A stretch of DNA of 64,000 bases from assembly GCA_964017185.1 (NCBI GenBank), contig OZ024879.1:38776383-38840382 (forward strand). Direction: 5' to 3'. Under the pieces are notes generated by a model. The model ran no database searches. It had not been told where the DNA came from and saw only the letters and a list, made by a program, of their open reading frames with translations. Shown here piece by piece: positions 11,050 to 63,558 of this stretch. How positions within the stretch are numbered: position 1 is the first letter of the stretch; each line of letters begins with the position of its first letter. The position numbers and the translations under genes are program-made. This DNA is from Rugalucina vietnamica. Taxonomy: Eukaryota > Mollusca > Bivalvia > Lucinida > Lucinidae.

Positions 11050-11162
11050 TTAATCTTCACTCCATGGATCACTGAAGGAGTTGACGGCGTTGTGTCCATT
11101 GCTGGAGGAAGGCATAGGGGTGTTCCCGACCTTTGGTACCACGAACTGGGGGAATGATGGAT
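11050..11162 (-). CDS. GTSF1: GTSF1-like exon 6: C-terminus with Trp341 and stop
   Basis: It starts after acceptor ATGTGTTTCAG, completes a split Asp codon, and ends FSDPWSED then TAA (11052-11050). The acidic/Trp ending resembles the PIWI-contacting Trp motifs of GTSF1 proteins. Confidence 0.87.
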
Positions 11163-13325
11163 CTGAAACACATGATATACTGTAAATCCGGTAATGTTCG
11201 CGAGAACTTAATTTTCGCTAATATTTGCGAATTCGTTGCCTCGCGAAAATAAAGTTCTCGCTAATAAAGAACTACTGTAAGCTTTATAGACTGCACGAGT
11301 ACTCGTTCGCGAATTCAAAGTCTCGCTAATAATTGGGAAATAGAAAATTCGCGAAATAAAAGTCACGCGAAAATTTCCGAACTTACAGTACATAATCTGA
11401 ATCTATCAGGTCCTTCATACACTTCTAAAAGAGTATAACATGGTGAAATGTTATAAGAATGACAAATATGAAGACATTTAAGCCGTCTCATGAGAAAACC
11501 AACAATGTGGTTTCTAAACAGGTCCGACACAAACCAGTCTGTGCTGTCACAGGAGATGGCTAGAAGCTTGAAATTCTGGATTTAGAAAGAAGAGGAATTG
11601 TACTATCAGTGTAGCAAAAACAAAGGCGCTGATCAGCTTCGCAGTTACTGTGAAGCTGATCTGCATCTTTCTTTTCACATATGCAGATTGTTGGTTTTCC
11701 CATGTGATAGCTCATTTATAGAAACTGAAAAAAAAAAAAACAAACTGAAATTATTATAGCCAGAAATGAAGATACCGTAAAACATTAAATTTCTTTGCTT
11801 TAGGCTATACTATGAACCTGATGTTTTTAATGCTGGTACACACTTTATACATTGTTCACTGTACTCATAGTGTACTCATAGCACAAATTTTCATCTGAGC
11901 TCTGAAATGTTAAGCATCTGGCGTATCTGGCCATAATGCAAAATTGCCGTATCATCCTACCAAAATACATAGAGGCCAAAAAACAGATAAAATTTGCAGA
12001 CAGTTTTGTTTTAAAAGCATGTCAACAGGCTTTGTCTCATTTTGAGTACAAAATTAAAGAGAAATTTTTGAATGCCAAGATTTGAAGTATACATACCCAC
12101 AGGTCCCCAACCACTTGCTCGACCCAGACCACCAAACCCTGGGGGTGGGGCTACAAAGTTGGCTCCCATTCCACGCCCGACACCCGCTCCTGGCACTGCA
12201 CCACGTCCCCTCCCCCTACCAACTGGTTTCTGTGAGGCAGGTTTGGGTTCGGACTGGGAGGCTGGGCTCGAGTCTCGGCTGGAATCTCTGTTTCTTTGAT
12301 ATATTACTTCTGATTCTTCTCGCTGGCCATTCTGCTCTCCGTTAACTGAAAACAAATGAATTGTTTTCATTTATTGTAGATCTATGTTGCTTTATCTCCC
12401 TTTAAACATCTATGGGTATGGTAGATAATGCCCCCACTTAACTGGGACTAACTGCTTTACTGGGTATCGGAACAATTTAGACAAAAGCTGAAGAGAAAGA
12501 AAGGTCAAATGCCAATTTTAGAACCAACTCTTCATGTAGAAATTAGCAGACAAAGTTACTAGGCCGTATTTTGAATGATTTTTAAATCCTGTGATTATTT
12601 TTAAGAATGCTTGTAATATGAGCTTGTCTTTGGGGTTTCTGACCAGGTCTGACACAAACCGACCTGTACAGTCACAGAAGCATGCTAGAAGCTTGAAGTT
12701 TCGGATTTAAGAAGAAGAGAAATTGTACTATCCATTTAGCGAAAACAAAAACGCTGGACAGGTTCGCAATTTCTGTGAAGCTGAATTCCGCATTTGTTTT
12801 CACATAGGCGAAAATCCAGTTTTCTCATGATGCCGCTCATATAAAACTTTCAAACCTTAATTCTTACCATATCCATTTTGGTTTGATGTGTTACCATTCA
12901 CAGTTGACCCATTCAGTGTTGGTGCCGAGTTGGCATTCCTCTTCATGCCCCTACCCCGCCCCGTACTGTAGGCAAACACTGCCGACACGGGCTGCTCCCT
13001 GGGCTTGACCTGGGGCTGATTGGCCATGGCTGCGTAGGACGAAGACTTAGGGAGTCTTAGGGATCCCTCCCCTTCAGATTGTTGTTGTTGTTGTTTACTG
13101 ATTTGCATTTCTGACATCATGTTTTTGCTGAAGAAAACATACTATAGTTGCAATGGTAAGTCATGTTGACCTATTTTTAACGTTTAATGTCTTGGCAACA
13201 GCTATGGTCATATTGAGACAGAACCTTCGCTTATAGTCTCATCCAACAGACTGGAGAAGCCCAAGATCAAACCTGCGACCCCTGGTTAGAAAGGCGAGAG
13301 ATATAAACATTGCACCAGGGAAGCT

Positions 13326-13363
<38 letters not shown>

Positions 13364-16300
13364 TATGGATCTGCCGGTCATTATCATTTGGATGAGTCCA
13401 GTTAAACTGTTTCATTTCAGGGGCATCAGGAGTTATTCTATCTTTTTATTTCATTTTCAATAAAATTCCTTTCAGCAAACAGGATAGCCCAGGATGGGAC
13501 CCCTGCGTCAGATCTGGTGCTATATTGTTTGATCATGTCCCTTGATAAAAAGGATGCCACGCTTAAACAAAAAGGGGTAAATAGGGTAAAAGGTGTCTTA
13601 CATTTTCTCTTCATTGGGGAGGTTGGCATCCTGTCTCATTCTTCTCTTCTCACCAGTAGACATACTGAAATAGGGAGATAATTATATGAGCCGCGACGCG
13701 AGAAAACCGGTCTTTGGGGTTTCCGACCAGGTCCGACACAAACCAGCCTGTACACCCACAGAAAAAAGCTAGAAACTTGAAATTTCTGATTTAGAAGAAA
13801 AGAGATTGACATTTCAGATTTAACAATGAAAGGTATTGTACTATACACCTGGACCTGTTTAGAACATTAAAGGGATCAAACATGAATTGATCAAACATGA
13901 TTTTCCATTCATTAACATTCGCTAGGTCCCTCGGGGAGTGTTGAAAACTGAGGGCAACGCTCCCCGAGGGACCTAGCGAAAGTTAATGAATGACAAAATC
14001 ATTTTTGATCGCTATTATTGCATAAATTCCGCAGAAACGAAAGAAATATGTTGCACTATATTTTACAGCCTCATCACATTTTCATACGCATAAAAGCTTT
14101 CGTATTTATGCTAGTTCCGGGCGGACTTCAGTTTCTCATTACCAGCACATGCTTTGCGTGGCGCCCGGTAACTCGCATAAGTAAAAGCCATGTATTAACA
14201 GCACGTGCATGCATGAATTGCAATATTAATGCATGGCTTTCTCTTCATTAATAAACGGCTGTTAATATCGTGTGACACGGGTATTTATGCAATAAGGTTT
14301 GTTAGAACATGGCTTTGGATATAACACTCATCACTGTTGGACCCCAAATCCTTAGTTAAGATTATTTTTGCTGTATGTCTATACATTTTACTCTCGTTAT
14401 AACACAGTTTGGATAGCTTACACGGATATTGGCCTGGACCCCAACAATAGTGTTATAAAGAGGTTGTGGTGTATGTGAGGCACAATACAAAGACGCAGAT
14501 CAGCTGTGCAGTTACTGCAAAGCTAATCTGCAGCTTTGTTTTCCCATAGGCAAAATTCTGTTGTTCTCATGTCACAGCTCATATATCACGATGACAATTC
14601 ATTTGTTTAAGGTTTATCATCACAATCGATAATTTTAGTCATTTCAAGATTTTGCACTGTTGCCATGGTGCATAATTAGTATTATTAAAGGATATGTCAC
14701 TAAATAAGCTCAAGATTAACCATAAAAACAAGCTCTTAACCATGTAGCTAGTATAAGAAGCCGACTCGGAAGTCATGGCATAAAAGAGTTGTGACATGAG
14801 ATTATCAAATTTTCAGCTGTGCAGTGCTGATCAGCACCTTTATTTGTACAATTTGTCTTCTTGAAGCCAAAATTTCAACCGTCTAGCATTCTTTGGCTGT
14901 ACAGGCTGGCTTGTGTTGGACCTGGTCGGAAACACTGCAGACCCGTTTTCATGTGTGCAGCACAAAAACTTATGTGAAGAATCAGATCAACCAAGACATT
15001 TGCACGAGAAAATCAACAAATTGGGTTTCTGACCAGGTCTGATACAAACCAGCCTCTACAGTCTCAGAAGCAGGCTAGAAGCTTGAAAATTTTGATTTAA
15101 GAAGAAGAGTGATTGTACTATCTGTATGACGAAAACAAAGGCGCAGACCAGCTTCACGGTTACCGCGAAGCTGGTCTGCGCCTTTGTTTTCACATATGCA
15201 AATTGTTGGGCGTTTTTTTTTTTTTTTATGTGGCCGTTAAAATCAATTTCTTTTGTGTTTTGTGTGCCTAAAGAAGGTTTTGGGTGTTTTGCCCACTATC
15301 AAAAGACCAGGGGCCAGTTGTTCAAAACTTCGTTAGCTTAACCACATCGTTAAGACATCAACTTGTTAAGTAAATCCTGACTACATAGGTAAATACAGTT
15401 ATTTTTGGTTGAAAAAATGTGAGAATGATTCTCACATTTTTTCAAAAAAAAAAAAAAACAAAAAAACAGTGTATTTATAATATTCATGTTTGAAATTTTA
15501 ATGAATTGTTAGCTAACAACATCGTTAATTTTGAACAACAGGCTCCAGACTGGAAAATACCACAGCTATGGATTGGCTCAAACACACTTCTAATATCCCT
15601 TACTACAAATAAAACTTCCTGTGCAAATTTTTCCGTACAAAGCAAAGCTATTTTAGAGCAAAATCAGGAGAAAACCTGTTGTTGTTTTTTTTTCAAAAGC
15701 AAGAACAAAGAAACAGATCAGCAGTGTAGTAACTGCACAGCTTATAAGCACCTTTGTTTTTGAGCCATAGAAAGAATGAAGACTATTCTTTCTTCATCTG
15801 AAATTTCAAACTTCTAACTATTTTTTGTGGCTGTACAGCCTGGTTTGTGTAAGACATGGTGGGAAATCCAGTTTGTGAAAGCAAAGTAACAAATCAGCTG
15901 TGCAGTAAAAATGTGATGGATGAACATCTTCCTTTTCTTTTAGTATTTTGAACAATCCCTCTTTTTCCTTTCATGCTTCTAGCCTTCTTCTAAGACTGCA
16001 AAGGCTGACTTTTGACAGCCTTGGTCAGAAACAATGAAGACAGGATTTCTAGAGATGCAATCCAATCACATCACGAAAACATGTTCGTGAAATGTATACC
16101 AGTCCCTCTCCCTTAAACCCCACTTTTATAGAGAAAAACTGGGGTTTGCTGGGGTATATCTAATTTTCTTTTTTTTTCGTCCAAAACATACATTGTGGGT
16201 ACTCATTAGAACCGCCTCGGTGAGGCGGTGTGCTGAGGCGGTTCTAACGTGTACCCACAATGCATGTCTTGAGCGAATATATTAAAACAATCAAATTTTT

Positions 16301-19300
16301 TCCAATGAAATTTTCAATTTTTTCTTCTGAAAAAAAATCTCTGTGTATTGCATGGGCATGTTTTCGTAATCTTTAGTGACTAAGATATCCTGGTTTCAAG
16401 TAACTGTGAGTTTCTGGTTTCAAGTTCCGCCTGTCATTATGAAAACTTGCCCATGCAATAAACAGAGATTTTTTTAGCTTAAAAAAATGAAAATTTTCAG
16501 TGGAAAAATGTTGATATTTTTCTTATTTTTGCTCAAAACATAGATTGTCGGTACACGTTAGAACCGCCTCGCCGAGGCAGTTCTAACGAGTACCCACAAT
16601 CTATGTTTTGGAGCAAAAATAAGAAAAATAGGTATACCCCTGCATACCCCAGTTTTACTATATAAAAGTGGGGTTTACGGGGGTATTCATTGCACGGACA
16701 TGTTTTCCTGATGGTGGTTATTTATAATTCTCATTAATTTAACAACACTTCCCTATAACTATGTTTTTTAGTTGAGGTACTTTGGTCGACTTTCACTCAA
16801 TTTGAAAGATGAAAATGTTTTGACTGTATATGATTTTGTGTCTATTTTGTATACCCGGGTAATGATTTAATGTGAACTGCAACTGCTATGCTGGGAAGGC
16901 AAGGTCCTGAGGTTATAAAATATTTTCATGCTCAACTCAGCTGAGCATGAAATTTAAACCGCTCAAAAATGATGAAATAGCCTAAATAAATTGAAATTTC
17001 AGGTTTAGATCATCAAGCATGCAATTTATCTTGCTGATGTTAAAATGCCAACAAATTGATTTTAGCATTTTACGAGCAAGATAAATTTTAGTCTAAGCTG
17101 AGCTGAGCATGAAAAAGTTCTATAATCTCGGTCAAGCAAGCTTTTCTAACCACACTATTCTTGAGAAGGCCTCTCAGAGGAAGATTATCAATATTAAGTG
17201 CACTAACTGATAAATGCTCTTCTTGTTTCAGTGGAAGATGAAGAATGATTAGACGAATAAAATTTTCATAACCAAGTTTTCAAGAAAGATAACTGTTGGA
17301 AGTGACAATTTCTTTCAGGTACTTATGAATCAGACACCTGTCCTGTTCTATTGAACTACACCCCACTGAAACATTTCCTCAATGAGAGTCGTGAGTGACT
17401 TACCCTCCAATATTGAGAAACCTGACCCTGGAGAAGTGGGAGGGGTCAACCCCGACCCTTACTGGTCCCTCAGCCTCTTCGTCCCAATCTTCAGTCTGTG
17501 GTACCTCCATGTTACTGTGGGTTGGGATATCTGTGTATCCCTTCAGTGTGGAATCATCCCCTTGCTCTATCCTTACTTCTACAAATATACAGACAATATA
17601 TATGTTCTTTTCTCGAGAAAACCAACATAGGGTTTCCGAACAGGTCCGACACAAATCGGCCTGTACAGTGACAGAAGCAGGCTAGATGTTTGAAATTTCG
17701 GATTTAAGGATGTTCGCTGCCAATGAAAAAGTATTCAAACTTTTTTTCTAACCACTCTTTCTTGATTCCAAAATACAACACAAGACATTTGAAAGCAAAA
17801 TAAATATAGGGTAGTGTGCATTTTTTCAAGGTATGGGCCTCTGAATGAGACCTCTGAGCACCATGTTTTAAATTTCGTAAAATTAATTAAATTTTTAATT
17901 CTTTGAAACATACCTGTCTTGAACAAAAACACACCCAGAATGCTTTCAAAAGTCATAGTATTTACGTAACGCAGACTATTTTTGACCAAAAGCATAGAAA
18001 AATTTGCAACTTGGAGTGGATGACAAAATTTTACGATTCATTTTCCAACCCTACCCCCATACTTGAAAAGTCGGAAAAAATCAATATTTTGAAATGTGCC
18101 AAACCCATATTTGTTGATTCAAATTTTTTCTTGTATTTTAACACAAGATAGAACGTGGTAATATTGTTCGAATAAAAGAAAGAAATATAAAGGGTAGTGT
18201 GCATATAAGAGAGAACCAACAACTTAAAATGGACATTTTCAGCCTTTCTTCGGCTCTTTTGTTTCTAAAAGCCCATTTCATAAAACCACCTAAAATTTTA
18301 AAACCAGCACACCAAAGACACAAAGAATGACTTAGAAGATCATGTACACATATACTGCTGCTAAAATAAACAACGAACTAGTGTAATTAATTTGAAGATT
18401 TGCAATATTCAAGTTTATTCTACCCTACCCCCTAAATTTCAATGATAACTAAAATTCTCTGAAAAATTGCATAAAATGGGGTGAAAAAATGAAGTTTCAT
18501 AGATTGACAATTTTCATGGCTCATTCAATGCATATCATCAATATGTATCCAAATACCAGAGGACCAATGGTCCTGTAAACACTCACCTGAGATCAGCTGC
18601 ATATACCAATAAACATGTTTGAATATTATGGTATTTAACTCCAGTGCAGGGGCAGATAAGCCCTTGGGCCATTTTCTTTTTTCAGAATCTTCAATATTCT
18701 GTCCATTTGCCAATTTCCTGTTGGCTTTTTCCTTCAAATGACATTTTAACAGTTTTCCCAATTCAGATGCACAGGCAACCCATGTTGACCTTGCCATAAA
18801 CTTGGTCAAGGTCATCACAGGGTCATGATTTATATATACATTGGAGTACTTTAGCCATCGATGCCTCACGCCAAGTTTCCTTGAAATCAGTCTATTGGTT
18901 TCAGAGAAGATGATTTTTGATGAGTTTTTACCATATATGGGCATGGCGGCCATCTTGGTCATGTGACCTAGATTATTTATATATACATTGATTCCCCCAT
19001 TCCATAGATGCTTCGCTTAAAATTTGGCTTTGTTTGGCCAAGCGGTTTCAGAGGAGAAGACGTTTGAATATTATGGAAATATACATGTATATTGCCCCGG
19101 GGTGGGGGCACATGAGCCCCTGGGGTCCAATTTTTTTCAGAATCATTAATATCCAGTCCTACTGCCCATTTCCTGCAAGACTTTCACTTTAAATGACATT
19201 TTAAAAGTTTTCCCCATTCAAAAGCATTGGTGACCTATGTTGACCTTCCCGTAAAATAGGTCAAGGTCATCACAGGGTCATGATTTATATATACATTGTA

Positions 19301-21630: not shown

Positions 21631-21662
<32 letters not shown>

Positions 21663-27600: not shown

Positions 27601-30600
27601 GAGAAGAAGATTTTTTTATGTTTTACCCATGAACCCCCCGGGGCGGGGCCCGTATGGACCCCAGGGGCATGGTTGGCAGGATTTATAAAGAGGACCACTA
27701 TACATTGCTACTGACAAAATATGAAAGCTCTGGGCCTTGTGGTTTCGGAGAAGAAGATTTTTTTATGTTTTTCCCATTGTAAGTCTTTGGGAGCTAATGA
27801 CCCCCGGGGCGGGGCCATTTCTGACCCCCGGGGCATGATTGGCAGGATTTATATAGAGGACCACTAAACATTGCTACACACAAAATATGAAAGCTCTGGG
27901 CCTTGTGGTTTCAGAGAAGAAGATTTTTTTATATTTTCATCATGACGCCCCCGGGGCGGGGCCCATATGGACCCCAGGGGCACGTATGGCAGGATTTATG
28001 AAGAGGACCAATAGACGTTGCTACACACAAAATATGAACGCTCTTGGCCTTGTGGTTTCAGAGAAGAAGATTTTTATATGTTTTTCCCATTGTAATTCTA
28101 TGGGAGCTATCCGTTGCCATGGAAACCAGAGTTCTGATCCGACCTGGCCCAAAACCTAACACAACCTTTCCCCCTCCTCAATGATGCTTTAGATAAAATT
28201 TGATTACGATCGGCCATGTTGTCTTAGAGATATTTGAGTTTGAAAATGTGAACGGATGGACGGACGCACGCACGGACGCACAGACGGACGCCGGCTCGAC
28301 TACTGTACTATAAGCTCACCTTGTGAGCCTTCGGCTCAGGTGAGCTAACAATGTGATTTCCGAAACAGGTCCGACACAAACTAGTCTGTTTATTCACAGA
28401 AGATGGCTAGAAGCTTGAAATTTTGGATTTAGAAAGGAGATAAATTGTACTATCTGTGTAGCGAAAATAAAGGCGCTGATCAGCTTCGCAGTTACTGCAC
28501 ATTTGTTTTTGCCTTTGCTTAATGTTGGTTTTCTCACGACGGGGCTCATTTAAGAATTCAAATGACAGTTTTGAGGTTGCATGGTCTGGTGAAAATAAAT
28601 AAGCTCACTGCAGGGTTCCCATTTAGCCTCTATTGAGGTTTTTTTACTCCTAAAAATTTTCATGTATCCCCAAAATTTGCAAACCTTCTTAACAGGCCTA
28701 CACATATGGGGTATATAACTAGGAAAATCAAGCCAGTGCATTACAAAAGCACACCCATGTAATATGCAGATTTTTCTTTAGTACATGTAGTATAAAGAAT
28801 TGAAAACTTTCAGTAGAATTTTTATTATATTTTTCTAACATAGATTGTGCGTACAAATCTACATGGTACTACAACATGTACAATGCATACCCTCATTCTA
28901 TGTTTTGGAGCAAAAATAAGAAAAGTAGGGATACCCCAGTTTTACTACATAACATAAAAGTGGGGTATAAGTGGGTATAGACTGCGCGGACATGTTATCG
29001 TGATGGTACCCTCAATTTCAAAACACAGTGGGAACCCTGAGCAGTTCATGAGCTGAGTGTAATGCTTTCAAGAGAAGCTAAATTACTGTGAGCAGTTTGT
29101 TTTTTTATCACAAGAGACAACCTCAAAATTATTATTTCAGTTTTTAAACAACTCATAAGCATACAAGATTCTTAACTGCAAATAGGTTAAATAAAGAAGC
29201 CCCTTATGATGCCTTCTCCCAATGGTGACGATACACTGAAGGCTTGTGACGCTACATGAGAAAAATAACAATGTGGTTTTCGAGCACAGGTCCAACACAA
29301 ACCGAGCTGTACAAGCACAGGAGATGGCTAGAGGCTGGAAATTTTGGATTTAAAGAGAAGGGGATTGTACTATCCGTGTAGCAAAAACAAAGGCACTGAT
29401 CAGCTTCGAGGTTACCGCGAAGCTGATCTGCGCCTTTGTTTTTGCCTATATGCAAATTATTGGTTTACTCATGAGGCGGCTCAAATGCTAGATAAAGAGT
29501 TTCATGCACTGAAATTTTCACCTATAAGACAATGACCCTACATATGAACTTGATAAACAGAATTTTAAAATGTCTGAAAGGTCCACTTACGATGCCGTCT
29601 CTCCGGATCAATAATTGCCTGATCCGGACAGTTCATCAAGTGATGACGATACTCCGGTCTTGGCATTTCATGCTTGGCGTTGAATGGGCAGGTCATAAAC
29701 TCTTTGCCCGTGTAGTTCTGGAAAATATATGTGTTTCTTGTAAAGCGAACGTTGTCTTAAATATGTAGTATTGTCGAATGAGTAAAAGTCAACAAAAGGT
29801 TTTTCATCATGAAAACATGACCATGAAATGAATACCCCCTTATACCCCACTTTTTATAATAAAATTGGGGTATACAGGGGTAGACCTATTTTTCTTATTT
29901 ATGCTTCAAAGCATAGATTGTAGGTACTCATTAGAACAGCCTCGGCGAGGCGGTTCTAGTGTGTATCCACAATCTATGTTTTGAGCAACAATAAGAAAAA
30001 TATCAAACATTTTCTACTAAAACTTTTTCAATTTTTTTACAACTTAAAAATCTCTGTATATTACATGCCATGGGCGTGTATACGTGATATGAGAATACCT
30101 CAGTGTGAAAGTAAGAATACATACAAATGATACGAGCCGCATCGTGAGAAAACCGGATTTTTGCCTAGGCGAAAACAAAGGCGCAGATCAGCTTCGCGGT
30201 AACCGCGAAGCTGATCAGCGCCTTTGTTTTCGCTACACGGATAGTACAATTCCTCTTCTTCTTAAATCCGAAATTTCAAGTTTCTAGCTCTTTTCTGAGC
30301 TTGTACAGGCCGGTTTGTGTCAGACCTGGTCGGAAACCCCGAAGACCGGTTTTCTCACGATGCGGCTCATACAATGTTTACAGCTCAAGCTAATGATCTT
30401 AATCAGTTTGTGTAGGTTGTCAGGCAGAAATTCTCATGACACAGCTTATGATATGAGCCGCGACGCGAGAAAACCGGTCTTCGGGGTTTCCGACCAGGTC
30501 TGACACAAACCGGCCTGTACAGTTTCAGAAAAAGTCTAGAAGATTGAAATTTCTGTTTTAAGAAGAAGAGAAATTGTACTATCCGTGTAGCGAAAACAAA

Positions 30601-32609: not shown

Positions 32610-32611
32610 CA

Positions 32612-32710
32612 TGAGATGATACTGGAAGCATTTTGCCCTGACCATATGGGCCCATGAGGTCATAACTGTCAGGTATATAATACTGGGCCATGTCTGAAAA
32701 TAGAAAAATT
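32612..32710 (-). pseudogene. Partial copy of GTSF1-like exon 1
   Basis: On the minus strand it repeats the acceptor CTATTTTCAGAC, the ATG and both ends of exon 1, but with an internal loss of about 20 bp that removes the first Cys region. It is separated from the real exon by a MITE (32340-32609). Confidence 0.85.
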
Positions 32711-33109: not shown

Positions 33110-33660
33110 CACTACCTTCCCACCTACCTATACTACCTCACCACCTACCTACCTACCTACTATACCCACCTACCTACCTTGCTCCCTACCTACCTACATA
33201 TCTACCTCCCTCCCTACACTACCTCCCCACACTTATTTAGACTACCACCCTACCTCCCCCTCCTTTCACTACCTACCAATCTACTTACCTACCTACCTCA
33301 CTCCCTACATTACATTACACTACCTACATCCCTCCATCCTTCCCTAAGTATCCATACACTTCCTACCTACCACCTTCTCTACACTACCTACCTCCCTCCC
33401 TTTCCTACCTGGCTCCCTTACTCCCTACACTACACTACCTCCCTATCTCCCTAATTACTTACATTACCTATCTACCTACCTCCCTCCCTACACTACCTCA
33501 ATTCCTACACTACCTTCCTCCCTCCCTACACTACCTCCCCCTATACTACATAACTACCTCCCTCCCTACAATTCCTACCTACCTCCTTCCTTCCATACAC
33601 TACCTATCCCCTCCCTGCTTACACTACCTCCATAGCTTCCTCCCTACTTTTCTCACCCCA
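33110..33660. repeat. Pyrimidine-rich CCTA/CCTC tract, ~550 bp
   Basis: Almost no G on the plus strand. Imperfect CCTACCTACC and CCTCCCTACACTA units. Apparent proteins (SLPTYLPPSLHY type) are only translations of the repeat. Confidence 0.9.
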
Positions 33661-37280: not shown

Positions 37281-37440
37281 GAGGGCTAGGATGCTAGGAT
37301 AACTTATCTAGAATTACTTTCAATGTCTAGAATTTCAGAACCAAAATATTACATCTACACACACTGCATGCCAAATATCGATATTTGACCAACGCCGGAG
37401 TGAAATAGCTAACTCCGAGGCAATAGCCAACGCCTGAGGA

Positions 37441-42750: not shown

Positions 42751-42835
42751 TTTCTCCCCCATCCGAACCCCCTGGTGAAATAATGTCATTTGGCGTGTCA
42801 CCAGTAAACTATTCAGATTCAGATTCACAAGGTAA
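39064..42835 (+). mobile_element. CR1/jockey-type LINE, protein intact
   Basis: The ORF plus a 3' tail with ACTATTCAGATTCAGATTCA at about 42812-42831. The 5' boundary is not determinable; the leader may begin anywhere after 38500. No target duplication was identified by eye. Confidence 0.85.
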
Positions 42836-43773
42836 GCGTATTGTAGTAGATTATAGTCATTACAGATCAGCATAAGGTAAAAGTAAATATTATTTCTTGA
42901 TAAAAAGACCATCAAATCTTGAGAATAAAATCGGTCGCCGTGTTGGTCTTATCTCTTCTGCTGCAGTCGAATCTTACTCCGGCGTTAACGTTACCCTCAT
43001 TTCCTCACGAAAGAAGGTCTGTTAATTAAATGCTTGAAAATGTTCAAAATATACAAAAATACAAGCGTGCTTCGGTTCTGTTAATATCAGATAAACATTG
43101 TTTCTTCCAAATACACAATTTCATAAGTCAATCATTTATTAGCTTGTCTACATATACCGGTACCTCGTGAAGTGCAAATCAACAGAAAACAGGCCAGCAG
43201 TTGACCGTACGTACGATATGCACATTTTGATATTCTTTTCTTTGTTTTTCTATATTATAAAGATTATGAATTACATGCCGTATTAGCGGTAAAATTAAAC
43301 TTTAATTTCTTCGTACACTGGACGCTAAAGCTTTTAAACACAAATATGCCTCATCGTTGGTCGTACCCATTCAATCCGTTCCTCCGGCGGCGATCGTATC
43401 ATACTCCGGCGTAGACGTTACCCTCATTTTCTCACTTAAAACAGTGTTCCGTTTAAATGATGCAAAATGACCAGAGAATACTATATAGGAGTGTGTTATT
43501 GTTTTAGTTTGGACTGTCAGTGGTTGTTGCTTTTATCTGTACACGGTCGATCATACATCTGCTCACAGAAACACGCAAATTGACTGATTTATGTTGATAG
43601 TTGTGTAAAGCACATTTTGCTTACTTTAATCAAGTATACGGATATGGTTTCACATGAAACTAATGTGGATAACTTGTTAAACATGAAATAAAGCTATAAA
43701 AATAAGCGAAACTCGAGTAAAGGCGCATTTCTACTTAAATTTTGCAACTTTTCAAGAAACACACTCACCACAT
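42836..43773. other. No gene recognised
   Basis: Right interior of the TIR element. Two CTCCGGCG blocks (CTTACTCCGGCGTTAACG at 42975, CATACTCCGGCGTAGACG at 43400) recur, otherwise AT-rich. Confidence 0.5.
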
Positions 43774-44588
43774 TCCTCAGCCGTTGGCTATTGCCTCGGA
43801 GTTAGCTATTTCACTGCGGCGTTGGTCAAATATCGATATTTGGCATGCAGAGTGTGATCTATCTATGAATACTGCGTCACCATCATTTCTGAAGATTATG
43901 CACAGGAATGCGTGCGAGAGAATAAAAGTAAAAATTTAAAGTGATACTTAAAAGAGTGACGTTGAGAAATGAAAAAAAGATGTACTTGCAAGATTGTTAG
44001 TAAAGATGTGAGATTAAAACCAGGCACCCGGGGGAGGGGCTGCCAGGTCAGCGGTGTACCTATGCGTGAACAAAAACCGATGAGAAAGGGCGGTCGGAGA
44101 GAGGGTACTTTTTTAAGCATGACAGTGCGCAGAGCTGTCGTCATTTAAGGTAGGACAATACAATTGAATTCGGTTCGGACCGGCTACATGCTAAAACTAT
44201 ACTTTAACACCGGTAAGCCGGGAACTAACTGAGTTAATTTCACAATCTTGGAAAAACCCACGTAAACTACTAGGTGAGTTTCAAAACATATTTCCTCTCA
44301 GCATACGTCTCCAAGTGTCTAAATTTGTTGTTCATATGGTTGTTTTATTTTCTACAAACGAATAGAACTGTTTCTTACCCTCCGGAATGCCAAGAAAACG
44401 ACGTTTTATCGTTTACAAACCGGAGTCTGGAACTGCCATATGTTAATGAGTTGCTATTTTTAGCTTGGACTTTTTCTAAATGTTTGTTCAGATTTTAATT
44501 GAATTTTTTAATCAAACAGGGCCGTTGTCAGCTTTTGAAAAGTGGTCCGGCCATGAAACATCAAAGTCGTTTTACGAGTGCCTTACGT

Positions 44589-45437: not shown

Positions 45438-45478
<41 letters not shown>
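45438..45478. repeat. (CA)n microsatellite
   Basis: About 20 CA dinucleotides. Confidence 0.95.
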
Positions 45479-45479
<1 letters not shown>

Positions 45480-50965: not shown

Positions 50966-50997
50966 AATATCTATTAAACTGTCACTGGGTGGTAAAT

Positions 50998-52087: not shown

Positions 52088-52319
52088 GTCCATGGTTATT
52101 GTGAGTGGTTGAGAAAAACAGCTAGTGGCTGGTCTTGCACCAGTAATTGAGTTTGTGTGAAGTACCTCATCAGTAGATATTATTAAAATGCCGGCTGGGC
52201 GTGCCAGAGGGAGAGCTAGGGGAAGGGCGAGGGAGAATGGTGAAGCTATGAGGAACCCCGGGGAGCCTGTGACCCCTAGAGTACCACAAGTACAGGGGCA
52301 GGGGCCTCAACAAGGACAG
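52088..52319 (+). CDS. PIWIL1: Piwi exon 1 of the coding set (5' UTR 52088-52187, coding 52188-52319)
   Basis: Acceptor TTTTTCATTCCAG precedes 100 nt of leader, then ATG. 44 codons encode the arginine-rich tail (GRARGRARGRAR), then Q/G/P-rich sequence. Donor is CAG|GTATTATT, phase 0. Confidence 0.88.
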
Positions 52320-55300: not shown

Positions 55301-58300
55301 GGTTTGAATATAAGTTATTATTTAATGCTTCTAAATGAAATTCCCTTATAAGCTAGGTCACATTTGAAAATATTATCAACCATGAATGTTTTGAAAATTT
55401 CCCAAATTCAGGGTTTACGTCGCTAAATTTCTCAATCAGAAAGACCCTAGGGCCCCTTCCCAAAATTGCCAAAACAATCCCTGGGTCTCCCATTCATATT
55501 TGAAACCCTTTCCCTCTTGTAAAACAGTTTGCTTGAATAATTTGAATTACAGGGTGATTTACAGTAACTGCAGTAATAAGGTGAGCTGCCTGGTGGGAAA
55601 ACCAACAATGTGGTTTCCGAACAAGTCTGACACAAACTGGCCTGCACAGTCACAGAAGATGGCTAGCGGCTTGAAATTTCAGATTTAAGAAGAAGAGGAA
55701 GTGTACTATCCGTGTATCGAAAACAAAGGTGCTGATCAGCTTCGCGGTTACCGCGAAGCTGATCTGCGTCTTTGTTTTCGCATATGCAGATTGTTGGTTT
55801 TCTCATGAGGAGGATCAAGGTGTCTAACACAGATTACATGATATTTTTCACAGGTACCACCCAATATGCCTCAGGGTGCGGTAGGTGGTAGGGACCCCAA
55901 CCCTAACCAGCCATCTAGTGGAAGAGCTGCTTATAGGGGCCAAGGGAGAGAACATGGCCGAACTGAGGCCCCTGAGCCCCCTGTAGAGCAGATGGGGGCT
56001 ATGAGGCTTGAGGAAAATGGAGCTGCAGCTAATCAGAATGAAGAACGACAGGTCGTTTATAGACGTGTGCCAGAGAGTCCTTATACAGAGCCGAGGGCTA
56101 TGAGGCTTGAGGAAAATGGGGCTGCAGCAAATCAGAATGAAGAACGACAGATCGTTTATAGAAGAGTGCCTGAACGGCCCTTTAGGGAGCCAGGAGACAA
56201 TAAAATTGGTAATTTCTCTGTAATTTTTTTTGGTTTAGTTGGTGCTTTATGTGTTGGTCCATGGTCAACAGCTAAGGTCGTGTTAGAAAATAGAATCCTG
56301 CATGGCATAGTGGTTATGTCAGTAGCCTTGTAAACTGGAAGCCACAGGTTTGATCCCGGGCTTCTCTAGTCTGCCTGGTGAGACTAAGTATAAACCGAGG
56401 TCCTTCTGCATATGACGTTAGCTGTTGATGGGATGTTAAACCCCAACTCAGTCAGTCATGTTGGGGTGGCTATTTAGCCTGGTCAAACTGTTCATGGGCG
56501 AACTGTTACAAGATATAAGTGCGTGTTGCACTTCATTTTTATAAACCATTAACTGAAAAAATCCCATTCTTGAATCAGCTGGAGAGGAAGAATGGCTTTA
56601 GAAATATTTTCATGACCTAAACTTCATGAAAGAAATGTGCTGGACTTAAGGATTGATCACCAATGGGCTTGGTTACAAATCAGACAAACTACTACTCAAA
56701 CTATTGCGCATGGTTATAGTTTTGGACATCCTTAAGTTTGTGGTAATCAGTCCAGTGTTTACACATTAAACTTTTTTTTTCCAAACATTGCCCCATTTAT
56801 GAAATGATCTTGAATGGCATATAAAAAAAATGATAATTTTCATCAGTTAAGCAATACATTGCGAAAACTTGCCCATTCAATACACAGATTTTTTTACAGG
56901 CTCAGCTGTAAAAATTGAAAATTTTCAGCTGATTTTTTTTATTTTTCTTATTTTTAATCAAAACATAGACTGTGGGTACACATTAAAACTGCCTTGCCGA
57001 GTCAGATCTAGCATGTTAGGCGCTTCTATCGAGTACCCACAATCTCTGTTTTGGAGCAAAAATAAGAAAATTAGGTATACGCCTGCAAACCCCAGATTTG
57101 CTGTAAAAAAGTGGGGCTGAGGGGTATACATTTCATGGATATGTTTTCCTGATGTATTTCAGGTCAGATGGGTACCCCTACGCAGCTACTCACAAACTGT
57201 TTCAGCCTACACCAGAAACCTGATTGGCAGGGGTACCAGTACCGTGTATGTTTCAGTACACAATCAATAAATCCTTTAAAGATATAAATGAGCCGCCTCG
57301 TGGGAAAACCAACAATGTGGTTTCCAGACAGGTCTGACAAAAACTGGCCTATACAGTCACAGAAGATGACTAGAAGCTTGAAATTTTGGATTTAAGTAGA
57401 AGAGCAATTGTACTATCCGAGTAGCGAAAACAAAGGCGCTGATCAGCTTCGCGGTTACCGCGAAGCTGATCTGCGTCTTTGTTTACGCCTATGCAGATTG
57501 TTGGTTTTCCCATGAGGCGGCTCAAATAGAACAAGGAATAAATGCCTTATTTTTTCGCTATTACAGGCCAGATGGGTACCCCGATGCAATTACTCACCAA
57601 CTACTTTAGCCTTCACCAACGGCCCGACTGGCATGTGTACCAGTATCACGTGGACTTCAGCCCACCGGTAGAGAGCAAAAGGCTAAGAATAGCCCTCCTC
57701 TTTTCTCATGGGGATCTTCTTGGACCGACTCGAGCTTTCGATGGTATGGTGCTGTATCTGCGGCGAAGATTGGATGACGAGGTATTGATATTCAAGCGAG
57801 AAATTGTGCAAAGATTAGATGACTTAAAAATAGTAGTAGTAATTTTGTTAAGTTACAACTGCGCAAATACCAGCCTAGCAATTCACAAGTTTCAGACATC
57901 TCAAAATCAGTTGTCAAAGGCAAGAAATTGACAGTCCACAACAGTCATTAAGGTGCAATTTAAATATAGAAAAAGTTGTTCATTTCTTTAAAATAGCCAA
58001 AAGCTGTCAAACAATAACCTCAGTCTGTTTCATTACATGTACTTTCAAACAACCAATGAAATTTTTTAAAAAGAGAAATCAACAGCTGTCAATTTCATCT
58101 TACTGTGGCCAATAGGTGACAATTTGTATTTCAAGGGTGATACAAATATTGGACAGGAAATGTCAATTTCATCTTTTTGACCAACTGGTTAAGAGATGCT
58201 TGAAACACCTGGATTGCTAAGCTGCTATTTGCGTGGTTGTAAATTTGAAGACATGCATCTGTGACTGTAGAAATAAAAAAAAAAATTGAGTTAGACAGAC

Positions 58301-61300
58301 TGAGGCAATTTTAACTATGGAATGTAATGCTGAAATTCACCCAGCAGGCACATGACGTCAGAATGACGTCAGATCTACTTCAATGCGACGTCCCATTGAC
58401 GTTGATATGACGTCATTATGACGTCATGTGCCCGCTGGGCAGCATGATATAAGCCGTGATGTGAGAAACCTTGACTGCGGTGTTTCCCATCAGGTCAGTC
58501 ATAAACGGCCTGTAGAGTCATAGAAGAATTCTAATTTAAGAATTGCACTATTTGTAGAGCGAAAACAAAGGTGCTGATCAGCTGTGCTGTTTGTGCACAG
58601 GTGATCTGCATCTTTTGTTTTTGCATAGGCAGACAGGTGTGGCACCTCAGAGCTTCTGAGTCATCCGCTTTTGAATTTAAAAACAAATGTAAGCCTGTCT
58701 AAAAATAGTGATACTTTTCTAATTTTAGGTGGTAGTCCATAGCCAGCGCCATACTGACGACGCCAACATCAGAATCACAATCAGATTGACAGCCGAGCTC
58801 CCACCCACCTCCCCAATGAGTCTTCAAATCTACGGGGTCATCCTTAGGAAGTGAGTTACCCTTTTGCTCAAATATCCATACTGTATGCTTAATTTTCCCA
58901 ATTGATGACAAAATATAGAAAAAATACATTCAGATTAACACCAGAGCTTCCAACTCTGCAATGTGTCTGCAAATCTACAAAGTCATTCTTAGGAATTTTG
59001 ATTCTTGAGTCACATGGGAAAACCAACAATGTGTTTTTTGAATAGGTCCTACACAAACCGAGCTGCACGAGCACAGAGGATGGCTAGAGGCAGGAAATGT
59101 CGGTCTTAGAAAGTAGAGGCATTGTACTAGATCTGTGTAGCTAAAACAATGGCACTGATCAGCTTCGCAGTAACTGATCAGCTTCGCAGTTACTGCGAAG
59201 CTGATCTGCGCCTTTGTTTTGGCCTATGCAGATTGTTGGTTTCCCGATGCGGCGGCTCAAATTATGATGCCTGAAAATTTTGACCTCACATTCTGTTAAC
59301 AAGATGTGGTATATTGTAGAAATATAGAAATTGTGAATCATCATAATGTCTCAGCAAAAACTGTAAATTCAAAATTTTTTGCGTGACTTTTTTTTCTATT
59401 TCCGAATTATTAGCGAGGTCTTGGATTAGCGAGTGAGTGTCCATGTAGTCTATAAAGTTTATAGTGATTCTAAACCTCAAACAAACAAACAAAAAATGTT
59501 TGAAATGTTTGGGTTGCCGAATTTCTAGTTTTCATTAAAAAAAAAATTTTTTTTAATACTGTAGATTCGGAAATATTCACGAGAATTTAATTTTCGTTAA
59601 TATGGGCGAATTGGTTGCTTGCAAATTCAAAGTTCTTGCTATTAAAGTGTCACTATAAGCTTTATAGTATATATAGACACTTGCTCTGAAATCAAGAACT
59701 CGCTAATACGGTCTATGAAAAATAAATATTTTTATTAATACAAATACATCTATCCAAAGCATTGATGAAGCTTGACAATGTCATTAAAATGTAATCAAGT
59801 TCTAAATTACACAGACATGTAATGATGTTGTTTTCGTTTCTTCAGGATTCTTTCAAGACTCAACATGATGCAAATAGGGAGGAACTTTTACAACCAAAAC
59901 CAGGCCAGGAGAATAGAAAAACATAAGTGAGTACTCTTGCCTCCTCCCCCACCCCCTTTTAAAGATTTCTTTGGAAACATTTTGATAATTTTAATGTGTT
60001 CGCTCAAAACATTGATTGTTGGTACACGATAGTACCACCTCACCGAGGTGGTTCTAGAGTACCCACAATCTATGTTTTGGAGCAAAAATAAGAAAATAGT
60101 ATATCCCTGCATACCCCAATTTTGTGGGGTATAAGGAGTCTATATTACAAGGACATGTTTTCCATTTGATTGGGTCATTAAGCAACAAAACATGCAAACA
60201 AGTAGCATATGAGCTTTTAATATTGACCAAACCTGTCTGTTGTAGCCCCTAAAGTTTGGCTGCCAGTGCAAATTATTAGGGGTAGATGCTGGAATGTCTA
60301 CTCCCAAAATGTCTATTCCCATATGAGCCGCATCGCAAGAAAACCGGATTTTTGTCTATGCGAAAACAAAGGCGCAGATCAGCTTCGCGGTAACCGCGAA
60401 GCTGATCAGCGCCTTTGTTTTCGCTACTTGGATAGTACAATTCCTCTTCTACTTAAACCCGAAATTTCAAGCTTCTAGCTCTTTTCTGTGCTTGTACAGG
60501 CCGGTTTGTGTCAGACCTGTTCGGAAACCCCGAAGACCGCTTTTCTCGCGTCATGGCTCATATTGTCATGTTTTCCTGATGTCTTTGTCTTCTGCCTTAG
60601 TTTAAATTCAATTAATGCTAGGTTTCCAAGTTGGACAATGGCTTAAAACGTAATATGAGCCGCGTTACAAGGTTTCCAACCAGGTCCGACACAAATCACA
60701 GAAGATGGCTAGAAACATGAAATTTGCGATTTAAGATGAAATGGAATGGTAGTATCTGAGAAGTGAAAACAAAGGTGCTGATCAGCTATGCAGTTACATG
60801 TACTGCAAATATCTGGTTTTCTCTTGACAAGGCTCATTTAACATTCTTTAGTGGTTAATATTAGTTATAGATAAATTTAGCCGTGTTATGAGAAAACCAG
60901 ATTTTTGCCAATGCAAAAACAAATGCGCAGATCAGCTGTGCAGTAACTGCACAGCTGATCAATGCCTTTGTTTTCACCACTCTGATAGTACAATTCCTCT
61001 TCTTCCTAAATCCGAAATTTCAAGCTTCTAATAGCCATCTTCTGAGACTGTAAAGGCGGGTTTGTGTCGGACGAGGTAGTAAACCCCCAAGACTTGCTTT
61101 CTCATGTCGTGGCTCAATTAACAATACTATTTGAGCCTGTGCATGAGAAAACCAACAATTTGCATAGGCGAAAACAAAGACGCAGATCAGCTTCGCGGTG
61201 ACCGCGAAGCTAATCAGCGCCTTTGTTTTCGCTACACGGATTGTACACTTCCTCTTCTTCTTAAATCCGAAATTTCAAGATTCTAGCCTGCTTCTGTGAC

Positions 61301-63558
61301 TGTGCAGCCTGGTTTGTGTCAGACCTGGTCGGAACCCCAAATTGTCGGTTTTCTCATGCACAGGCTCATTTTATAGATTACAAGTCCTCCCTGGCTTTGT
61401 TGAATCAATTCAGCTCTTAGAAAGCGGCCCACTTCTCAATCTTGACGTTTCCAACAAGATCTTGAACACCGAGACAGTTTACGATATGAGCCGCATCGTG
61501 AGAAAACGGGATTTTTGCCTAGGCGAAAACAAAGGCGCAGATCAGCTTCGCGGTAACCGCGAAGCTGATCAGCGCCTTTGTTTTCGCTACACGGATAGTA
61601 CAATTTCTCTTCTTCTTAAATCCGAAATTTCAAGCTTCTAGCTCTTTTCTGAGCTTGTACAGGCCGGTTTGTGTCGGACCTGGTCGGAAACCCCGAAGAC
61701 TTGCTTTCTCATGTCGTGGCTCAATTAACAATACTCTTTTACAGATTACAAGTCCTCCCCGGCTTTGTTGAATCAATTCAGCTCTTAGAAAGCGGCCCAC
61801 TTCTCAATCTTGACGTTTCCAACAAGATCTTGAACACTGAGACAGTTTACGATATGATGAACAACATGTATCAACGTCGGCCCAACACTTTTATGGACGA
61901 TTTCTCGCGAATGATAATTGGGCAGATTGTTATGACAAGGTAGGTCGTTTTGGCAATTTGCCTCTTATTCATCTGGACCCAGTTGTTCAAAGCATCGTTA
62001 GCTTAACGATATCGTTAAGACATAAATTTGTTAAGCAAATATCAGCTAAAGTAACAAATACACTGTTATTTTTTGTTGAAAAATGTGAGAATCCTTTGCA
62101 GTGCAAAGGATTCTCACATTTTTTCAACAAAAAATGACAGTGTATTTGTAATATTAATGTTTGAAATTTTAACGAAACGTTAACTAACGACATCGTTAGT
62201 TTTGAACAACTGGCCCCAGATTTGCTAGAATACTTTGACAGTGTTGCTTATTCTCTGACATAGATTTGCATTTGTTGATCTGACTGCTTAAATAACAATG
62301 TTCTCAATAATGCGACTCTATGGCGGTAAACAAAATATGACAACATGCTTCGCATGGCACTGGAAAAAGGTGTAAAACAAGTAGGTGCCCCTTTTACCCT
62401 GTTTACAAAACTTTATCACATGAGTTCAAGTGGCATGGTCAAAGTATTTTACCTATAGTAGAACTAAACTTACGGATGATAATTGGGCAGATTGTTATGA
62501 CAAGGTAGGTCATTTTGCCTATTTGCCTATTATTCATCTATTTTGCAAGTATCCACAAGAGATAATGTTTGGCTACTCAATCCCAGAGATTAATAAGCAT
62601 GACGCTCAAAATGTAATGATCCCTGTCACTTGCAGGAAATAAAAACACACATAGTCACGCTCAATTACCAGTTATCGTAAATCTTTTCAAACACCACTGT
62701 TTCAACAGGAAAACATGTCCATGAAATGTATACCCCACTTTTATATAGGAAAACTGGGGTTTGCAGGGGTATGCCTTATTTTCTTATTATTTGTCCAAAA
62801 CATACATTGTGGGTACTCGTTAGAACCGCCTCGGCGAGGCAGTTCTAACATGTACCCACAATTTATGTTTTGAGCAATAATAGTAGAAATATCAGAAATT
62901 TTCTGATGAAACTTTTCACAACTTAAGAAAAATCTATGTATTACATGGGCATGTTTTCGTAATTTGTAGCATAAATGAGTTGTCATGGTGCCATAGAGTA
63001 GGAAATTTTGTTTATAAAATTTCACCAGAATACGTTTGAGTACTGTTGTTTTTTGAAAAGGTTCGTTTAGTATCAAGTAAGACTGGTGCTGCTGTAAAGC
63101 CTATGACTTTGGGCCGAGGAGTCTCTGGTTTGACCCTCAACTGGATTTCTGTGTCATCAGGAAAACATGTCCGTGCAATATATACCCCCTTAAACCCCAC
63201 TTTTATATAGTAAAACTGGGGTTTGCAGGGGTATACCTATTTTTCTTATTTTTGCTCCAAAACATAGATTGTGGGTACTTGTTAGAGGCGGTTCTAACGT
63301 GTACCCACAATCTATGTTTGGAGCAAAAATAAGAAAAATACCAAAAAATATCTACTGAAAATTTTCATTTTTTACAACTTAAAAAATCTCTGTTTATCGC
63401 ATGGGCATGTTTTCGTAATGAAAAACATTTTCTGTATATTTCACAGGTATAATAACAAAACCTATCGCGTGATGGACGTGGACTACGAAAAAAGCCCTTT
63501 GTCCACCTTCAGACGAAGTGATGGCACTGAAGTATCCTTCAAGGAATATTTCCAAAAT
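52188..63558 (+). CDS. PIWIL1: PIWI-like protein (PIWIL1/Piwi1 type), first seven coding exons, 3' end outside the window
   Basis: Exons 52188-52319, 55854-56208, 57567-57781, 58729-58850, 59846-59926, 61745-61939 and 63447-63558 sum to 1212 nt = 404 codons with all phases closed. N-terminus MPAGRARGRARGRAR carries repeated RG/RA motifs, like PIWIL1. Residues 94-159 are two 33-residue repeats. From 163 the N domain reads LLTNYFSL, VYQYHVDFSP, RLRIALL and AFDGMVLYL; then ELPPTSP, QIGRNFYN, LPGF and LDVSNKIL; then MTRYNNKTYRVMDVDYEKSP with TFRRSDGTEVSFKEY, which is PIWIL1-like PAZ sequence. Family knowledge: germline Argonaute loaded with piRNA; the MID and slicer domains should follow to the right. 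The start ATG lies 100 nt inside an exon after acceptor TTTCATTCCAG, so a non-coding first exon lies upstream. The GTSF1 cofactor gene is the divergent neighbour. Confidence 0.94.
52755..55034. mobile_element. DNA element with 624-bp terminal inverted repeats in Piwi intron 1
   Basis: Arms 52755-53378 and 54411-55034 are the same length and differ at only about nine sites by eye. Ends begin CACACTGGTAAACG, and both flanks show GAAAT (52750-52754 and 55035-55039), a likely 5-bp target duplication. Each arm holds repeated AACGnnnTGGCTAAG words (52771, 52791, 52814; looser at 53193; 53220). The centre has C-runs and a SINE but no transposase frame. CAC ends with a 5-bp duplication recall Transib-like elements; the family is unproven. 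Confidence 0.85.
53884..54120 (+). mobile_element. tRNA-derived SINE
   Basis: 53884-53957 folds as a tRNA-like head: acceptor CCCCGTG pairs with CACGGGG, A box GTGGCCGAGTGG, B box GGTTCGCGCC. A body shared with other copies follows (TGAGACAAGCCATGTTCTGC, TTTTCGCCCCACCTACCGAT, AAAGGGACGTAAAACTGAAT), then an AATAAT tail. It is nested in the 52755 element. Confidence 0.85.
55128..55483. mobile_element. CAGGGATTTTT-ended MITE in Piwi intron 1
   Basis: Ends CCAGGGATTTTTTTCGG and ACAATCCCTGG with GGTCTCC on both sides (7 of a possible 8-bp hAT duplication). The interior has ATTCCCAAT words similar to the 25930 element. Confidence 0.6.
55583..55818 (+). mobile_element. Family A MITE just before Piwi exon 2
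   Basis: GAGCTGCCTGGTGGGAAAAC to TTTTCTCATGAGGAGGATC, 36 bp from the exon start. Confidence 0.8.
55854..56208 (+). CDS. PIWIL1: Piwi exon 2: internal 33-residue tandem repeat
   Basis: 355 nt after acceptor TTTTTCACAG, ending phase 1 at ATTG|GTAATT. It encodes residues 45-162, with a G/R-rich part (GRAAYRGQGREHGR) then two near-identical repeats. Confidence 0.87.
56001..56198 (+). repeat. Two 99-bp tandem repeats inside Piwi exon 2
   Basis: Units 56001-56099 and 56100-56198 each encode MRLEENGAAANQNEERQ, then V/I-VYRRVPE, then a variable end. Differences are few, so the duplication is young or kept homogeneous. The frame is preserved. Confidence 0.92.
56858..57153 (-). mobile_element. Family B MITE before the exon 3 copy
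   Basis: TTGCGAAAACTTGCCCATTC to CATGGATATGTTTTCCTGAT, ending 10 bp from the exon copy. Between Piwi exon 2 and this MITE (56209-56857) no other element is recognised. Confidence 0.78.
57163..57245 (+). pseudogene. Truncated copy of Piwi exon 3
   Basis: 83 nt after a good acceptor (GATGTATTTCAG) encode QMGTPTQLLTNCFSLHQ and KPDWQGYQYR, clearly a copy of exon 3 ending at YQY, followed by a possible donor CGT|GTATGT. Used together with real exon 3 it would break the phase (phase 0 exit into a phase 1 exon), so it is probably a relic. A MITE ends 10 bp before it and another starts 45 bp after it. Confidence 0.8.
57290..57523 (+). mobile_element. Family A MITE between exon 3 copy and real exon 3
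   Basis: GAGCCGCCTCGTGGGAAAAC pairs with GTTTTCCCATGAGGCGGCTC apart from one G-T type change. Confidence 0.87.
57567..57781 (+). CDS. PIWIL1: Piwi exon 3: start of N domain
   Basis: 215 nt between acceptor GCTATTACAG and donor GAG|GTATTG. It encodes GQMGTPMQLLTNYF, YQYHVDFSP, RLRIALLFSHGDLLGP and AFDGMVLYLRRRL, the conserved PIWI N-domain block. A truncated copy lies 0.4 kb upstream at 57163. Confidence 0.93.
58340..58440. mobile_element. Short palindromic MITE with four CRE sites
   Basis: CCCAGCAGGCACATGACGTC at one end and TGACGTCATGTGCCCGCTGG at the other. Four full TGACGTCA palindromes plus TGACGTTG-type variants in 101 bp, in Piwi intron 3. Confidence 0.75.
58451..58640 (+). mobile_element. 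Family A MITE, decayed, in Piwi intron 3
   Basis: AGCCGTGATGTGAGAAACC start and GCGAAAACAAAGGTGCTGAT centre. The preceding part of the intron, 57782-58339, shows nothing else recognisable. Confidence 0.6.
58729..58850 (+). CDS. PIWIL1: Piwi exon 4
   Basis: 122 nt from acceptor CTAATTTTAG to donor GTGAGT (phase 2 end). It encodes IRITIRLTAELPPTSPMSLQ, matching PIWIL1 ITITLTNELPPTSP. A decayed second copy follows at 58927. Confidence 0.92.
58927..58996 (+). pseudogene. Decayed partial copy of Piwi exon 4
   Basis: It keeps ATTCAGATTAACACCAGAGC and CAAATCTACAAAGTCATTCT, matching the 3' half of exon 4 at about 80 percent. It stops where a MITE begins at 59008. Confidence 0.7.
59008..59257 (+). 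mobile_element. Family A MITE next to the exon 4 copy
   Basis: CACATGGGAAAACCAACAAT to GTTTCCCGATGCGGCGGCTC. The centre contains an extra duplicated CAGCTTCGCAGTAACTGAT piece. Confidence 0.8.
59556..59712. mobile_element. TACTGTAA MITE, partial
   Basis: ATACTGTAGATTCGGAAATA and AAGAACTCGCTAATACGG match the 11176 copy. Confidence 0.6.
59846..59926 (+). CDS. PIWIL1: Piwi exon 5
   Basis: 81 nt between TTTCTTCAG and GTGAGTAC, encoding ILSRLNMMQIGRNFYN and a basic end. The QIGRNFYN motif is conserved across PIWI proteins just before PAZ. Confidence 0.92.
   Translation, partial: DSFKTQHDANREELLQPKPGQENRKT
59998..60162 (-). mobile_element. Family B MITE, left part missing
   Basis: AGTACCACCTCACCGAGGTG centre and AAGGACATGTTTTCC end. 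Confidence 0.72.
60325..60559 (-). mobile_element. Family A MITE copy in Piwi intron 5
   Basis: GAGCCGCATCGCAAGAAAAC to TTTTCTCGCGTCATGGCTC. Confidence 0.85.
60656..60836 (+). mobile_element. Family A MITE, shortened
   Basis: GAGCCGCGTTACAAGGTTTC to TTTTCTCTTGACAAGGCTC. Confidence 0.65.
60880..61114 (-). mobile_element. Family A MITE upstream of the exon 6 duplication
   Basis: Right end and flank GTCGTGGCTCAATTAACAAT recur at 61715-61734, which marks the duplication unit. Confidence 0.83.
61133..61368 (-). mobile_element. Family A MITE, TGTGC subfamily with perfect TIR pair
   Basis: GAGCCTGTGCATGAGAAAAC with GTTTTCTCATGCACAGGCTC. Confidence 0.87.
61371..61487 (+). pseudogene. 5' part copy of Piwi exon 6
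   Basis: Nearly identical to exon 6 from its acceptor through GTTTACGATATG, then interrupted by MITE 61488-61722. The acceptor has changed from TACAG to TATAG. The high identity makes this the youngest exon copy here. Confidence 0.88.
61488..61722 (-). mobile_element. Family A MITE between the two Piwi exon 6 copies (chimeric)
   Basis: Left end GAGCCGCATCGTGAGAAAAC (ATC type) but right end TTTCTCATGTCGTGGCTC (as in 60880-61114), so the two ends come from different MITE copies. Confidence 0.85.
61745..61939 (+). CDS. PIWIL1: Piwi exon 6: start of PAZ
   Basis: 195 nt from acceptor CTTTTACAG to donor GTAGGTCG. It encodes LQVLPGFVESIQLLESG, LDVSNKILNTETVYDMM and MIIGQIVMTR. Partial copies lie on both sides (61371-61487 and 62474-62540). 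Confidence 0.93.
61974..62219. mobile_element. Family C MITE in Piwi intron 6
   Basis: CCCAGTTGTTCAAAGCATCG to TTTTGAACAACTGGCCCCA; centre TGCAGTGCAAAGGATTCTCA. Confidence 0.78.
62474..62540 (+). pseudogene. 3' part copy of Piwi exon 6 with its donor
   Basis: Matches the end of exon 6 (ATGATAATTGGGCAGATTGT onward), its GTAGGT donor and about 30 bp of the following intron. No acceptor precedes it. Confidence 0.8.
62706..62963 (+). mobile_element. Family B MITE copy
   Basis: AGGAAAACATGTCCATGAAA to ACATGGGCATGTTTTCGTAA. Confidence 0.83.
63155..63420 (+). mobile_element. Family B MITE copy before Piwi exon 7
   Basis: CATCAGGAAAACATGTCCGT to GCATGGGCATGTTTTCGTAA, 26 bp from the exon start. Confidence 0.83.
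63447..63558 (+). CDS. PIWIL1: Piwi exon 7: PAZ
   Basis: 112 nt from acceptor TATTTCACAG to donor GTAAGAAA, phase 0 end. It encodes YNNKTYRVMDVDYEKSP and SDGTEVSFKEYFQN, nearly the human PIWIL1 sequence. The remaining exons are outside the window. Confidence 0.93.

Follow-up and report, generated by a model that had tools for sequence, protein, structure and literature searches.

A GTSF1-like gene and a PIWIL1-type gene stand head to head in the bivalve Rugalucina vietnamica, probably by coincidence

In the genome of the lucinid bivalve Rugalucina vietnamica (1.09 Gb in 47 contigs), a GTSF1-like gene on the minus strand and a PIWI gene on the plus strand stand head to head, with an ATG-to-ATG distance of 19,870 bp and 19,869 bp separating the two start codons. 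The locus was analysed in a stretch of 64,000 nucleotides (C11:38776383-38840382), hereafter the window, in which one of the two GTSF1-like loci of the genome and one of its four PIWI loci are neighbours. The adjacency, the divergent orientation and the intactness of both genes are observed, and the measured distance agrees with the original prediction of divergent genes whose start codons are about 20 kb apart. The arrangement is explicable without shared control, and nothing found supports the co-regulation of the two genes. The neighbourhood is probably coincidental, and coincidence is ranked as the most likely explanation, followed by an old or selected linkage and, in third place, by a dedicated cassette.

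The GTSF1-like gene (GTSF1-A) consists of seven coding exons that run along the minus strand from 32318 to 11050 and encode 365 aa followed by a stop codon, with GT-AG borders at all six introns. Coding exon 1 (32208..32318) carries the ATG and CHHC finger 1, exon 2 (29591..29717) carries CHHC finger 2, and exon 3 (17404..17578) encodes the central region with a single tryptophan motif, EDWDEE. Exon 4 (13602..13664) is followed by exons 5 (12868..13127) and 6 (12097..12345), with a GRGR and a GRGRGR run, respectively, and by exon 7 with the stop codon (11050..11162). The two tandem fingers score 39.5 and 29.4 bits against PF05253, for which the Pfam cut-off is 21.1 bits, and together with the seven-exon model these scores confirm the predicted complete GTSF1-like gene with two CHHC fingers reading left. 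Among solved structures the protein matches GTSF1 6x46 best (E 5.1e-22), with 9nhb, through its GTSF1 chain, in second place (E 4.6e-10). The ATG is preceded by TTTTCAG-AC, a splice acceptor 2 bp upstream, which points to a probable untranslated first exon nearer the PIWI gene.

According to PMC9385479, mouse GTSF1 binds RNA through the basic residues R26, R29, K36 and K39 and PIWI proteins through the tryptophans W98, W107 and W112. Counterparts of R26, R29 and K36 are present in finger 1 of the GTSF1-A protein, while K39 is replaced by N in both GTSF1 paralogues of the genome, and of the three tryptophans only W107 has a counterpart, within EDWDEE. The protein shares with the GTSF1/Asterix family the two CHHC fingers and agrees with it in part at the RNA- and PIWI-binding residues, with three of the four basic positions and one central tryptophan in E[DN]WD; where 9nhb could be aligned, its GTSF1 chain also has just one of the three central tryptophans. 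It differs from the family in its length of 365 aa and its long RG-rich tail, human GTSF1 being 167 aa long.

The PIWI gene comprises 18 coding exons that encode 929 aa on the plus strand, from an ATG at 52188 to a stop codon that ends at 87182 on the scale of the window; it extends 23 kb beyond the window, with seven coding exons inside and 11 outside. Every intron has GT-AG borders, and the N, PAZ, MID and PIWI regions lie in one intact reading frame that is free of internal stops. Exons 1 (52188..52319, with the ATG and an RARGRARGRA N-terminus) and 2 (55854..56208) lie outside the spliced alignment and were positioned manually, with open frames and splice signals as guides; the start codon is accordingly less secure than the remainder of the model. 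They are followed by exons 3 (57567..57781), 4 (58729..58850) and 5 (59846..59926), by exons 6 (61745..61939) and 7 (63447..63558), which encode the PAZ region, and by exons 8-18 beyond the window. Exon 2 holds an in-frame tandem duplication of about 97 bp (window 55996-56191, 87% identical), by which the N-terminal part is lengthened.

From exon 3 onwards, beginning with GQMGTP, the remaining 767 residues match Piwi-like protein 1 along their full length at 775 bits, and Piwi-like protein 2 less closely, at 664 bits. The D-E-D-H slicer tetrad is found in GIDVYHD at 687, GEELVDKL at 725, YRDGVGDGQL at 757 and TPTHYNV at 848, motifs whose D, E, D and H residues we take to be the catalytic ones. 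The full-length match, the tetrad and the RA/RG-rich N-terminus are shared with PIWIL1-type PIWI proteins, whereas the faster evolution of the protein relative to its paralogue on contig C13 and an insertion of about ten residues that follows the catalytic histidine set it apart. The original prediction of a PIWIL1-type gene reading right therefore holds for type and strand, but the gene is a divergent paralogue, and the gene on C13 is nearer to PIWIL1.

The sequence between the start codons is largely repetitive. Multi-copy or low-complexity DNA accounts for 14,257 of the 19,869 bp and, with a further stretch of about 945 bp (46.67-47.61 kb), for about 75-76% of the interval. This count is based on comparison with other loci and on genome searches, as well as on a CTAC array delimited by eye at 33.0-33.76 kb, in which a tandem-repeat program marks 33110-33629 and about 240 bp at the edges were counted by hand. 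A young non-LTR retrotransposon (LINE) occupies 38604..42825 on the plus strand, its ends being inferred. Its frame of 1234 codons (window 39046-42750) encodes a PHD finger, an endonuclease and a reverse transcriptase, and upstream of the PHD finger it contains a 2A-like DIEMNPGP motif. The LINE is 98-100% identical to 39 other copies (the best 40 of 2,822 candidates were scored), and the family looks recently active because many copies are nearly identical. The element apparently inserted into an older multi-copy repeat (37358..43858, unstranded), splitting it into 37358-38603 and 42826-43858; the corresponding halves abut at C1:11497086-11499348. Another multi-copy element (33882..34963, unstranded) is about 1.08 kb long and dispersed across many contigs; its ends form inverted repeats of about 420 bp with 84% similarity.

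No host gene was recognised with Pfam in the interval, the LINE alone exceeding the cut-off among the frames scanned. The scan took in eight of the 14 frames reaching 90 aa, the other six being four within the CTAC array and two on the strand opposite the LINE. Of the 39 frames reaching 58 aa outside known repeats, a set that overlaps with the first, it took in 22, and small novel genes may exist among the remaining 17. Matches to DUF4619, APOBEC_N, DUF5910, DUF2691, RRM_MARF1 and POP1_N all fell below the cut-off (E 0.015-0.09) and look like noise. The expectation that only repeats would be found between the two genes holds in substance.

Genome searches, in which the best candidates were scored and which for the family searches also covered 14 control genomes, placed four PIWI loci at C11 (the window), C13:17.81-17.88 Mb, C3:67.7 Mb and C3:37.5 Mb; a more distant gene at C11:2.86 Mb is probably of the Argonaute type. 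A six-row tree over 517 columns, with a human sequence standing for PIWIL1, joins the PIWI proteins of the window and of C13 as sisters (99/98) and groups both with PIWIL1, while the C3 genes group with PIWIL2 (100/99); for the window PIWI the bit scores to solved chains point the same way. The branch leading to the window PIWI is 0.81 long and that leading to the C13 PIWI 0.23. Over the same 517 columns the C13 PIWI is 54.9% and the window PIWI 47.6% identical to human PIWIL1, and the linked PIWI is therefore not the closest PIWIL1 relative in the genome.

Two further features of the PIWI family were observed in passing. The exon for the first two catalytic residues of the C13 gene occurs in two versions, at 17809437-17809664 and 17820971-17821159, which are 70% identical in DNA over 155 of 175 bp; they may be used alternatively, or one of them may be left over from a second gene. 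The PIWIL2 type is represented by two genes (C3:37504365-37526156 and C3:67726047-67739957), which are 72% identical over 517 columns and whose modelled parts are free of stop codons. In PMC6128900 no further duplication was seen in the molluscan Piwil2 clade, and measured against that account the second copy is unusual for a mollusc.

Among the candidates scored, a search with the GTSF1 protein yielded 12 matches with E values no higher than 1, and all of them fall at two loci of C11: GTSF1-A in the window and a second GTSF1-like locus (GTSF1-B) at C11:52.66-52.68 Mb, 13.9 Mb away on the same contig. A third GTSF1 candidate, on C14, was rejected, as it showed only a weak PF05253 match (E 0.68) and spliced alignment produced no sensible GTSF1.

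Both pairs of paralogues are old. For the PIWI pair (window and C13), pN is 0.29 and pS 0.77 over 551 codons, and for the GTSF1 pair the values are 0.20 and 0.79 over 137 codons; since pN is well below pS and synonymous sites are saturated, both duplications are old and both copies have been kept. By these codon comparisons, both retained members of each pair are under purifying selection. The window PIWI has undergone 76 lineage-specific changes and the C13 PIWI 34 at 548 sites, whereas GTSF1-A and GTSF1-B show six and five at 99 sites with mouse as the outgroup, and seven and three at 100 sites with the 9nhb chain. The window PIWI is accelerated and GTSF1-A is not clearly so, the GTSF1 counts being small.

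Extra PIWI copies have precedents in molluscs. Jehn et al. (2018, PMC6128900) describe extra Piwil1 copies in a bivalve and two snails, and PMC12479628 describes extra diverged copies of one PIWI class, which we infer to be the PIWIL1 type, in some bivalves, abalones and snails. The locus studied here resembles these duplicated molluscan genes in having an extra diverged PIWIL1-type copy, but those accounts are without GTSF1 linkage: the string 'gtsf1' occurs 0 times in the main text of PMC6128900 and 'gtsf' 0 times in that of PMC12479628. Among the titles listed by searches of open-licence papers, none was on a GTSF1-PIWI linkage.

Coincidence, the preferred explanation, would require separate duplication and rearrangement to have placed the GTSF1-like and PIWI genes side by side, with transposons then filling the gap between them. 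By analogy with the biochemistry of the two families, the PIWI slicer would cut piRNA-matched transposon RNA, and GTSF1 would bind both RNA and PIWI and so speed the cut. Under random placement, proximity within 19.87 kb has a probability of 3.6e-5 per pair and of about 2.9e-4 for the eight pairs formed by the GTSF1-like and PIWI loci of the genome, so that coincidence would be unlikely had this been the only pair asked about. The figure carries limited weight, since this pair was singled out once it had been noticed, among very many possible functional pairs.

The same improbability, for a pre-specified pair, favours the second reading, an ancient or selected linkage in which GTSF1 has stood beside a PIWIL1-type gene for a long time in this lineage and the two are co-regulated in the germline. 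The demonstrated adjacency and divergent orientation are in keeping with it, as is the age of both genes, which are intact and saturated at synonymous sites. On the other hand, 19.9 kb separate the genes, and CpG and G+C content gave no sign of a common promoter. Among the matches listed from the best candidates scored, the linkage is not repeated elsewhere in the genome: the PIWI loci on C13 and C3 (one and two, respectively) have no GTSF1 match in their vicinity, nor does GTSF1-B have a PIWI match in its own. The flanks likewise argue against it. A sulfotransferase gene occupies window positions 1-1086 and another lies to the left of the window, while two other frames, one of 115 aa at 5189-5533 and one of 180 aa beyond the right end of the PIWI gene, matched nothing in Pfam. 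The flanking translations listed (frames of at least 75 aa, four of them scanned with Pfam) revealed no further piRNA gene; they cover 30 kb on the left (partly N), window positions 1-11000 and 13.2 kb on the right and amount to a weak test. A long-standing selected linkage is therefore considered unlikely, and the suggestion of a small piRNA gene cluster finds no support either in these flanks or at the C13 PIWI, near which no GTSF1 match lies.

Less likely still is a lineage-specific cassette in which GTSF1-A would be the specific cofactor of the fast-evolving PIWIL1 paralogue and their linkage would be under selection. The general idea that the two proteins work together is correct in the light of Arif et al. 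(2022, PMC9385479), according to whom GTSF1 speeds target cleavage by PIWI proteins and GTSF paralogues discriminate between PIWI paralogues; this discrimination is one argument for a dedicated pair. Another is that both genes are paralogues under purifying selection. The PIWI gene is, however, accelerated (changes at 76 versus 34 of 548 sites), and GTSF1-A, without a clear excess, does not share this, so that tight co-evolution is not supported, within the limits of the small GTSF1 counts. The central motif is, moreover, similar in both GTSF1 paralogues, which also speaks against a dedicated partner.

A misjoin of the two genes across repeats, for which the repeat-rich gap with its LINE of many almost identical copies might be held responsible, is very improbable, as both the window and the 40 kb that follow it on the right are free of N bases and stretches without copies elsewhere are scattered through the gap.

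Partial copies of coding exons were also found at the locus. A decayed copy of GTSF1-like exon 1 lies at 32610..32691 on the minus strand (75% identity), and a truncated copy of PIWI exon 6 lies at 61377..61489 on the plus strand (98% identity over 113 bp). Other truncated same-strand exon copies are located at 57165-57241, 58926-58995 and 62473-62504, as well as outside the window, all near their parent exons and 74-98% identical overall. Partial same-strand copies were detected for nine of the 18 exons of the window PIWI and one of the seven of GTSF1-A, and among modelled exons for two of six in GTSF1-B and three of 11 in the C13 PIWI, where two of the three copied exons owe this to minisatellite-like arrays holding an exon end. 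The two PIWIL2-type genes have none among 20 modelled exons. In control genes (three chaperonin, one Argonaute-type and one sulfotransferase) one exon of 23 was copied, the control exons being profile-match or open-frame spans in loci of 8-10 kb, with the database size for E-values set differently.

The notion that such copies are special to PIWIL1-type and GTSF1 genes was rejected, since local same-strand copies were present in all 15 stretches compared in 150-bp tiles. Tiles with local copies made up 15% to 68% of a stretch, with 35% at the PIWI locus; when only tiles lacking a distant copy were counted, the share was 7% to 39%. The exon copies are in line with local tandem duplication as a habit of the whole genome; what remains as a residual pattern is that the exons of control genes are mostly spared from copying. 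Mutually exclusive exons in the window PIWI are not supported, as 12 of 12 copies cover just part of an exon. A chaperonin-family gene on C8, which also counts against anything special to the piRNA genes, shows three (C8:61636712-61637131) and seven (C8:61644497-61645927) tandem profile matches to the same exon stretch.

The locus contributes a well-defined paralogue of PIWIL1, and the genome two of GTSF1, alongside a young multi-copy LINE family. If the neighbourhood proved to be conserved, it would physically link a piRNA slicer to its required cofactor and would suggest joint inheritance and regulation of PIWI and GTSF1 paralogues that belong together.
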